Shown here one piece after another: positions 15,770 through 19,717 of a stretch of 64,000 nt of DNA. Under the pieces are notes generated by a model, which was given only the letters and a program-made list of their open reading frames with translations, had not been told where the DNA came from and ran no database searches. Source of the DNA: Sphingobacteriaceae bacterium. Lineage in GTDB: Bacteria; Bacteroidota; Bacteroidia; Sphingobacteriales; Sphingobacteriaceae. Made by a program: the position numbers and the translations under genes. The stretch covers positions 57,698 to 121,697 of the forward strand of contig JAHEGO010000069.1 of NCBI GenBank assembly GCA_024645045.1, read 5' to 3'. Each line of letters begins with the position of its first letter. Within the stretch, counting starts at the first letter, position 1.

Positions 15770-17875
15770 ATGAACAGCATGTTTAATACTACCTTTCATT
15801 TTTCTTCTCAATCGACTTGGTGGATTTTGCTATGTGCCTTCATTGCGACTTTATATAGCCTTGTTTTATATTTTCCGCATTCGGGATTCGCTAAGCCTTA
15901 TCGATTTTTATTAACCACTGCCCGTTGGGTATTGGTTTTCATTTTAATGTTATTTTTATTTTCTCCATTATTTACTAGTAAGTCTAGTAGAGAAGAAAAA
16001 CCTTTGTTGTTTTTTTTGCAAGACAATTCTAGTTCAATTTTAGCATCTAATAGAAAATCTTATTATCAAAACGAATACCTTAATCAACTTCAAGAGTTTA
16101 AAGCAAAATTGGCTGATAAGTTTGATGTATCATTTGTCAAATTTGGAGAAACATTAGCTATTGATCAAGCCAATCCAAATTACAAAGATCAGCAAACGTC
16201 TATTGCTGCTGCGATGCAACAGGTTGCTACACTCAGCATTAATAAAAATGTTGCTGCAGTGGTATTAGCAACTGATGGAATTGCAAATCAAGGTCAAGAT
16301 CCGTATTATGAATCGCAGAAATTAGCATTGCCAATTTATTCAGTTTGCATGGGTGACCCACGAGTGCAGAAAGATGCAACGATTAAAGATGTTCAAGCAA
16401 ACGATGTGGTATTTAAAGACACTTATTTTCCTGTAAATATCCAGTTAAAAGCATACTCTTTAGCTGGCAAGTTTTCAGATTTAATTATTTTTCAGAATGG
16501 TGTGCAGAAAAAAAAGCTAAAGGTAAATATCAATAAAAATGATTTTTTCGCGACAATTCCTTTTGAGTTATTTGCTGATCAAGTAGGATTGCAAACATAT
16601 ACAGTTAAATTAAATCCAATTAATGGAGAGCAAAATTTAGCAAATAATACTTTTCATTTTTATGTGAATGTGTTAGCGAATAAACAAAAGATACTGCTTT
16701 ATGCAAACGCTGCACACCCAGATTTGGCTGCATTTTCGTCGATTATAAAAGCAAACGAGCAATATGAATTAACAACATTAATAGATGAAGAAATAGCGCC
16801 TAAAGATTTAGCTAAATTTCAATTGTTAATTTTGCATCAATTACCTTCAGGTAACAATGCCTCGTTTGATTTGCTTACTCAGGCGAAAGCGCTAAATATC
16901 CCTATCTTTTATATAGTTGGTCCGCAAACATATATTGATTTATATAATAGACAAAATGCTGCAGCGCAAATACTCAATGCCAATTCAAAACTAAATGAAG
17001 TAACAGCTTCGTTCAACGATGATTTTTATTATTTTAATTTAACACCCGAAACCAAAAGTTTAATTACGCAATTGCCGCCTTTGAATGCACCATTTGGAAG
17101 TTACCAAACACAGGCAAACGCGCAAGTTTTATTGAAGCAACAAGTAGGCTCGGTGTCAACGAATATGCCTTTGTTGAGCTTCCATATACAAAATGGTTAT
17201 AAGTCTGCAAGTTTATTTGGTGATGGCATTTGGCGATGGCGATTGGCTAATTATCAGCTAACAAACAATTCGGTTGCGGTGGAAGAGCTAATTCAAAAAA
17301 CCATACAGTTTTTAGTTTTGCAATCGGATAACAGAAAGTTCAATGTAAAAATTCAAAATAGCAACATTGTGGCTGGTGAAGAAATAAATTTCAATGCCAC
17401 TTTATACAACGATAGTTATCAAGCAATCACAGGGCCAGACGTACAATTGAAAATCAAAAACAGCCAAGGAAAAACTTTTGACTTTGTTTTTTCTAAGAAT
17501 AATATCAATTATGAATTGAATGCAGGTGCATTTCCAGCAGGAGCGTATTCTTTTAGTGCTAAAACGCAATTAGGCGCGAATCAGTTCACTGATAAAGGTA
17601 ACTTTACAATTAGGGCTAACCAATTAGAACAAATGGATACAAGGGCTAATTTTGACTTGTTGAATAATATTTCGAAACAGTCTGGAGCAATTAGTTTTCG
17701 AGATAACCAATTGATGGCACTAGCAGATACATTATTGCTTAATCAAAGTTATAAACGCATTGCATTCGAAGAAACAACTAGCAAGGAATTAATTGACTTA
17801 AATTGGTTTTTAGGCTTCCTGCTTGCATTGGCTAGCCTAGAATGGTTTGGTAGAAAGCGACTGGGTAGATATTAA
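15770..17875 (+). CDS. Membrane-anchored VWA-like (BatA-type) protein
   Basis: N-terminal TM helices, FFLQDNSSSI and VVLATDGIANQG (MIDAS-like), C-terminal TM LGFLLALASLEWFGRKRLG. Confidence 0.65.
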   Translation: MNSMFNTTFHFSSQSTWWILLCAFIATLYSLVLYFPHSGFAKPYRFLLTTARWVLVFILMLFLFSPLFTSKSSREEKPLLFFLQDNSSSILASNRKSYYQNEYLNQLQEFKAKLADKFDVSFVKFGETLAIDQANPNYKDQQTSIAAAMQQVATLSINKNVAAVVLATDGIANQGQDPYYESQKLALPIYSVCMGDPRVQKDATIKDVQANDVVFKDTYFPVNIQLKAYSLAGKFSDLIIFQNGVQKKKLKVNINKNDFFATIPFELFADQVGLQTYTVKLNPINGEQNLANNTFHFYVNVLANKQKILLYANAAHPDLAAFSSIIKANEQYELTTLIDEEIAPKDLAKFQLLILHQLPSGNNASFDLLTQAKALNIPIFYIVGPQTYIDLYNRQNAAAQILNANSKLNEVTASFNDDFYYFNLTPETKSLITQLPPLNAPFGSYQTQANAQVLLKQQVGSVSTNMPLLSFHIQNGYKSASLFGDGIWRWRLANYQLTNNSVAVEELIQKTIQFLVLQSDNRKFNVKIQNSNIVAGEEINFNATLYNDSYQAITGPDVQLKIKNSQGKTFDFVFSKNNINYELNAGAFPAGAYSFSAKTQLGANQFTDKGNFTIRANQLEQMDTRANFDLLNNISKQSGAISFRDNQLMALADTLLLNQSYKRIAFEETTSKELIDLNWFLGFLLALASLEWFGRKRLGRY

Positions 17876-17893: not shown

Positions 17894-18226
17894 TTAAAAA
17901 AAGTAAAACCTTTTTTTCTTCTCAATGGTGTCTGTTCTTGGAATTTTAACAATCACATAAACATCTTCATTGTCTTTTTTCATTAAGTACTTTTCTCTAC
18001 CGAATTTCTCTAAATGGTTTTGATCTGTTGTAAGGTTGATAAAATCCTTTTCCATGCGATCAATATCCTTGATGTAATATGCTTTTTGATCTTCCAGCAG
18101 TTTTAAGTCGTTGTAATGTTGGTATTGGCTGATCAGGTCGTTTCTATCAAACACCAACATCCAAACAATAAATAAGGCAAAGCTTAAATAGTATTTGTTT
18201 TTTAAGATGTTTAGAAACTTTTTCAT
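17894..18226 (-). CDS. Septum formation initiator family protein (DivIC/FtsB)
   Basis: Short protein, one TM followed by a coiled coil; LEKFGREKYLMKKDNEDVYVI. Confidence 0.85.
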   Translation of the reverse strand: MKKFLNILKNKYYLSFALFIVWMLVFDRNDLISQYQHYNDLKLLEDQKAYYIKDIDRMEKDFINLTTDQNHLEKFGREKYLMKKDNEDVYVIVKIPRTDTIEKKKRFYFF

Positions 18227-18234
18227 TTTTTGGT

Positions 18235-18272
18235 AAAAAAAAGGACAGATGCCCGCTTGTTAACATCTGTCC
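18235..18272 (-). terminator. Intrinsic terminator-like hairpin between eno and the divIC-like gene
   Basis: Minus strand GGACAGATG-TTAACAAGCGGG-CATCTGTCC followed by T8; only about 9 nt before the downstream ATG. Confidence 0.85.
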
Positions 18273-18285
18273 TCATAATAATTTT

Positions 18286-18299
18286 AACCACAAGCGGTT
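18286..18299 (-). promoter_or_regulatory. Upstream hairpin of the divIC leader
   Basis: Minus strand AACC-GCTTGT-GGTT; its loop is complementary to ACAAGC in the loop of the downstream terminator. Confidence 0.45.
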
Positions 18300-18418
18300 T
18301 TCATGTTTTATGTTTCGGATACAAAGAAAATAATCTTAATTGGTTTTAGTCAATCTTAATTTTCAACATATCAACATTTTAAAGATACAAAAAACCTAAA
18401 TTAAAAACCAAATTTAAA

Positions 18419-19717
<1,299 letters not shown>

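Follow-up and report, generated by a model that had tools for sequence, protein, structure and literature searches.

A candidate transcription-attenuation leader upstream of divIC in lake Sphingobacteriaceae

Features of the divIC locus

We analyze a stretch of 64,000 nucleotides from a Sphingobacteriaceae bacterium (the whole of it is hereafter called the window), in which a divIC/ftsB gene is preceded on the minus strand by a short folded region ending in an intrinsic terminator. The gene's identity rests on Pfam, where PF04977 (DivIC) scores 29.2 bits, barely above the cut-off of 28.9. The features at the locus are as follows.

17894..18226, minus: divIC/ftsB gene, 110 aa, the proposed controlled gene (Pfam PF04977 DivIC)
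18235..18377, minus: whole conserved leader, about 143 nt (one copy per genome, 9/9, before divIC)
18235..18242, minus: T8 tract of the terminator (sequence)
18243..18272, minus: intrinsic terminator stem-loop (terminator scan and fold)
18253..18260, minus: ACAAGCGG in the terminator loop, partner of CCGCTTGT (sequence, relatives, shuffles)
18284..18304, minus: short ORF, MKTACG and stop (start codon invariant, peptide not)
18286..18299, minus: small hairpin AACC-GCTTGT-GGTT (sequence and fold)
18290..18297, minus: CCGCTTGT, upstream strand of the loop pairing, 7-nt core invariant (relatives and shuffles)
18310..18330, minus: 3' arm of the long hairpin, TTTTCTTTGTATCCGAAACAT, containing TTtcTTTG (aligned relatives)
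18331..18359, minus: apical part of the long hairpin (sequence lineage-specific, still pairing)
18360..18377, minus: 5' arm of the long hairpin, ATGTTGATATGTTGAAAA, conserved block 1 (aligned relatives)
18380..18387, minus: -7-type box TATCTTTA of promoter P1 (one mismatch to TAnnTTTG)
18409..18412, minus: -33-type box TTTG of P1 (TTTG-N21-TATCTTTA in the window)

An earlier note on this DNA had placed a structured leader at 18224-18345. The parts it named are present, but the unit is longer, its 5' start lying about 30 nt earlier at 18377. The terminator it described (GGACAGATG-TTAACAAGCGGG-CATCTGTCC-T8) occupies 18272-18235 of the minus strand and does lie close to the ATG, with the T run ending 8 nt before the ATG at 18226; across the nine genomes that carry the leader (six of genus g1, including the window's, two of g23 and one of g24), 8-15 nt separate the T tract from the divIC start codon. 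This hairpin is the first-listed and strongest terminator-like site of the region in the terminator scan. In relatives its stem shows two compensatory double changes and one G-U and, judged from the aligned sequences, is kept by compensatory change. A 102-nt leader sequence folds better than its own shuffles (z = -2.5).

Directly 5' of the long hairpin lies P1, a match to the promoter consensus TTTG / TAnnTTTG (PMC7366714) that is perfect (TTTG-N21-TAnnTTTG) in g23, as TTTG-N21-TACATTTG, and in g24, as TTTG-N21-TACCTTTG. From the position of the -7 box, given as -12 to -5 relative to the start in PMC9723704, the RNA is predicted to start near 18375. The element TTtcTTTG had been put forward as a promoter; it is probably the 3' arm of the long 5' hairpin instead, because the A of TAnnTTTG is absent in 9/9 sequences and the hairpin arm explains the element, and P1 upstream is the better match. 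The companion argument, that a downstream promoter is excluded and expression must pass through the terminator, agrees with the relatives: no consensus promoter lies between the terminator and the divIC start in any of the nine genomes. A poor -7-like (TTTG-like) match, TTTTTTTTG, occurs 3' of the terminator in five of the six g1 genomes, and we count it against attenuation. Throughout the nine, the terminator thus stands between a promoter and divIC with no conserved promoter after it, as in an attenuator.

A possible short ORF follows P1 in the window (18377-18360) and in L067, L068 and L069 (ATGTTAATATGT, MLIC...), as does an alternative one (ATGTGGAAA, MWK) resembling the start of the g23 DivIC. 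Coding by such an ORF is not supported, as frames and lengths vary among genomes.

Distribution and linkage to divIC

A model search recovers the leader once in each of the nine genomes, which belong to three genera of lake Sphingobacteriaceae, and always before divIC; whether the model covers the leader or only its 5' half, each genome gives one match. All five other g1 genomes carry the leader at 94-96% identity over 109 nt, and the two g23 genomes and the g24 genome carry a diverged form. Identity within the genus is not diagnostic by itself, because the leader of carA (below) is equally conserved in g1. Between genera, a 36-nt leader block is 94% identical; the figure for third positions of same-amino-acid divIC codons is 40-53%.

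Beyond these genomes, the models found nothing except weak single matches in about 390 further family genomes, in 21 family genomes with laxer filters, and in 394 class and 395 phylum genomes. We rejected the matches of model R1 elsewhere in the family as ordinary terminators or chance. Across 84,980 species genomes, the pattern ATGAAANCCGCTTG...CAAGCGG turned up in 30 stretches, and the element itself was located only in the already known lake genomes; no leader was found in viral contigs. Within the nine genomes the leader precedes no other gene. An 18-nt match, AAACATAAAACATGAAAA, which five g1 genomes have near the apparent end of another gene, was set aside, having nothing else in common with the leader, and an insertion or repeat element was rejected on account of the single copy at one site. 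The nine genomes cluster in a divIC tree, which neither shows nor excludes a single origin. Most of the named records are bins from lake or other metagenomes, labeled uncultured bacterium, Bacteroidota, Sphingobacteriales or Sphingobacteriaceae.

The leader had also been linked to eno, the gene upstream of it in g1 and g24. That link fails in both g23 genomes (L068, L069), where the upstream gene is one of ~700 aa, and we rejected a leader function tied to eno on this arrangement. The ~700-aa gene lies at 15770-17875 in the window, where its copy has no Pfam match; it is convergent with divIC there and runs in the same direction as divIC in g23, which means that divIC and its leader were inverted or relocated as one unit. 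Because the leader and P1 stay just before the divIC start (8-15 nt) even in g23, we assign the leader to divIC.

Pairing elements and proposed mechanism

Upstream of the element described in the earlier note lies a second conserved block, ATGTTRATATGTKGAAAA, which pairs with TTTTCTTTGTAT..GAAACAT and closes a long hairpin whose apical part varies among lineages. The two hairpin blocks are invariant and spaced 53-54 nt apart; the hairpin base never varies in nine genomes and so shows no covariation. With flanks fixed, only 9, 21 and 2 shuffles per 1000 give an equally stable apical stem for G046, G027 and G028; the stem is significant in g23 and g24, where it is re-formed from unrelated sequence. 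By the same shuffles it is not significant in g1, a result counted against an attenuation leader. Because AAACAT is duplicated, the hairpin base can adopt two registers, with energies within about 1.4 kcal/mol of each other in 9/9 sequences. Alignment column 12 (A or G) gives a standard pair in one register in eight of the nine sequences and a mismatch in the ninth, a change that decides nothing because it is also synonymous if read as a codon. With a start 5 nt past the -7 box, the RNA would lack the beginning of the 5' arm and one register would be weakened, which likewise counts against attenuation.

The small hairpin AACC-GCTTGT-GGTT (18299-18286) and the 8-nt complement between CCGCTTGT (18297-18290) and ACAAGCGG (18260-18253) are present on the minus strand as first described. 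A complement of that length between the terminator loop and upstream sequence arises in 8 of 2000 dinucleotide shuffles for the window, and the 9-nt complement of g24 in 0 of 2000. The earlier note had made conservation in relatives the test of the loops, and the proposal withstands it: both segments are invariant in the nine genomes of three genera, which share a 7-bp complementarity, CCGCUUG/CAAGCGG. This helix never varies and so gives no covariation signal for the loop pairing; the absence of covariation here and in the hairpin base is counted against attenuation. The 4-bp hairpin does not hold as the fixed partner, its register being shifted in g23 and g24; hairpin and loop pairing were both rejected as covariation evidence, as shifted or invariant.

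When transcripts are truncated short of the terminator 3' arm, all nine are predicted to form CCGCUUG/CAAGCGG; for full transcripts, nested prediction always favors the terminator over the loop pairing. The pairing need not exclude the terminator, because its partner is the terminator loop and not a stem arm; it might block the terminator or stabilize it. From these folding models we infer that the loop pairing may form in the cell.

The linker between hairpin and terminator also holds a short ORF, with an invariant ATG and A-rich context and a stop within 4-6 codons in 9/9 (TAA to TAG once). It encodes MKTACG in the window, MKPACG in g23 and MKPA in g24. The peptide is not conserved and lacks any series of regulatory codons; going by these sequences, a peptide-specific leader is not supported.

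The following scheme would connect these elements. Transcription would begin at P1, just before the long AU-rich 5' hairpin, and the RNA would then run through the conserved linker with CCGCUUG to the intrinsic terminator 8-15 nt before the divIC start. Once the terminator loop had been made, and before the 3' arm appeared, CCGCUUG could pair with CAAGCGG; this predicted order would leave a time window for the 5' domain to act on termination. The pairing might compete with the terminator or be built into it, setting read-through into divIC. Whether CCGCUUG is free would depend on the state of the 5' domain, through its two nearly equal registers, one of which covers the AUG of the short ORF, or through a ribosome on that ORF. 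Both the switch and the direction of control are our inference.

Alternative readings and known systems

With moderate confidence, we read the divIC leader as a new, lineage-restricted transcription-attenuation leader: attenuation of divIC is preferred because no conserved promoter follows the terminator and the unit moves with divIC. A folded leader ending in a stop signal just before divIC probably sets the frequency with which divIC is transcribed. The proposal of a dedicated structured leader crossed by divIC expression is supported, and the leader lies outside known riboswitch classes, with no Rfam match.

The main rival, which we hold unlikely, is a separate gene for a trans-acting sRNA that ends at the terminator and just happens to lie before divIC; the RNA would be about 135 nt long if started at P1 and 75 nt if started internally. 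The presence of a promoter and a terminator would fit, as would the high conservation of the 5' region and CCGCUUG, the most conserved parts. However, the unit relocates together with divIC and keeps a distance of 8-15 nt to the divIC start, a separate gene would leave divIC without a conserved promoter in four of the nine genomes (the window included), and complementary 12-mers in the nine genomes are near the reversed-control level, a comparison of low power. We think it very unlikely that the element does no more than terminate eno, the gene upstream, while divIC is expressed from read-through or from a weak T-tract promoter. In g1 there is no other eno terminator, none being found before P1 (window 18378-18421), so that transcripts of eno probably either stop at the leader terminator or continue into divIC. 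In other genera of the family, too, eno is followed by a terminator at a comparable site just before divIC; yet this reading leaves the cross-genus conservation of the 5' blocks and P1 unexplained, and in g23 the unit follows a different gene. An equally slight probability goes to a DNA-level element, in which proteins bind the two blocks as part of the promoter region and the hairpin has no role of its own. The invariance and spacing of the blocks would suit binding sites, but the intervening segment pairs with different sequences in g23 and g24, the CCGCTTG linker is equally conserved, and compensation in the terminator stem is of the RNA type.

Two further readings concern what an attenuator might sense. 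Translation of the short ORF (18304-18284) could cover CCGCUUG and set read-through, so that the leader would sense translation and not a ligand. We regard this tentatively, as possible though doubtful; being a sub-case of attenuation, its probability overlaps with that of the preferred reading. The invariant ATG and A-rich context and the early stop in 9/9 speak for it, as does the ORF and terminator of the carA leader in the same genome, but the peptide is altered non-synonymously and has no regulatory codon run, and the ATG also lies in a hairpin register, which would explain its invariance. Somewhat less likely still is a new class of sensory RNA in freshwater Sphingobacteriaceae, whose signal would be a metabolite, an ion, a protein or temperature and which, by way of a pseudoknotted terminator, would tie expression of the divisome gene divIC/ftsB to that physiological signal. 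A sensor domain would be looked for before metabolically related genes in many taxa; the leader stands only before divIC and only in three genera.

A further leader of this layout precedes carA in the window (20976-20836, minus), with promoter box TACCTTTG, an 18-residue ORF (MKTLQKCIDFCSIGNDPN, 20962-20906, minus) and a terminator (20889-20867, minus) before the likely carA ATG. It is 93-96% identical within the genus, and the g24 carA leader (L128) has the same layout and a different sequence. It looks like a second attenuator, and such a second promoter-leader-terminator-ATG arrangement in the same genome counts for attenuation of divIC. The two leaders together suggest that promoter-leader-terminator units are a recurring control mode in this little-studied lineage. 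If the attenuation reading is true, these small-genome lake bacteria adjust the amount of a divisome protein by transcription attenuation, and the leader's conserved bases are a short candidate sensor.

Rfam 15 gives no family match at gathering score in the window, permissive scans of the leader and its relatives give only scores far below threshold, and the literature searched holds nothing relevant on attenuation or RNA-level control of divIC or ftsB. Riboswitch-type attenuators with a pseudoknot in the expression platform combine a 5' structured domain, conserved unpaired bases and a terminator before the gene. The divIC leader resembles them in having an upstream strand able to pair with the terminator region and differs in its lack of an Rfam match and of a ligand or pathway link, its one target gene and its restriction to three genera. 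Ribosomal-protein leader RNAs with pseudoknots are conserved leaders able to control their own gene; here, in contrast, the target is non-ribosomal and no such Rfam family matches. Leader-peptide attenuators are described in Bacteroidota, in F. psychrophilum (PMC9723704) and, as candidates, in B. thetaiotaomicron (PMC7366714), and share with the divIC leader the order of short ORF, terminator and gene. Those with strong clues precede amino-acid biosynthesis operons (PMC9723704, PMC7366714), whereas the divIC leader has an unconserved 4-6-residue peptide and a cell-division gene. For F. psychrophilum, 64 unassigned structured 5' transcribed regions are listed (PMC9723704); the examples named in that text (pheA, hisG, ftsY, acsA, alaS, rimP) do not include divIC. 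The divIC leader is like these regions in being a structured 5' leader from Bacteroidota that no Rfam family matches.
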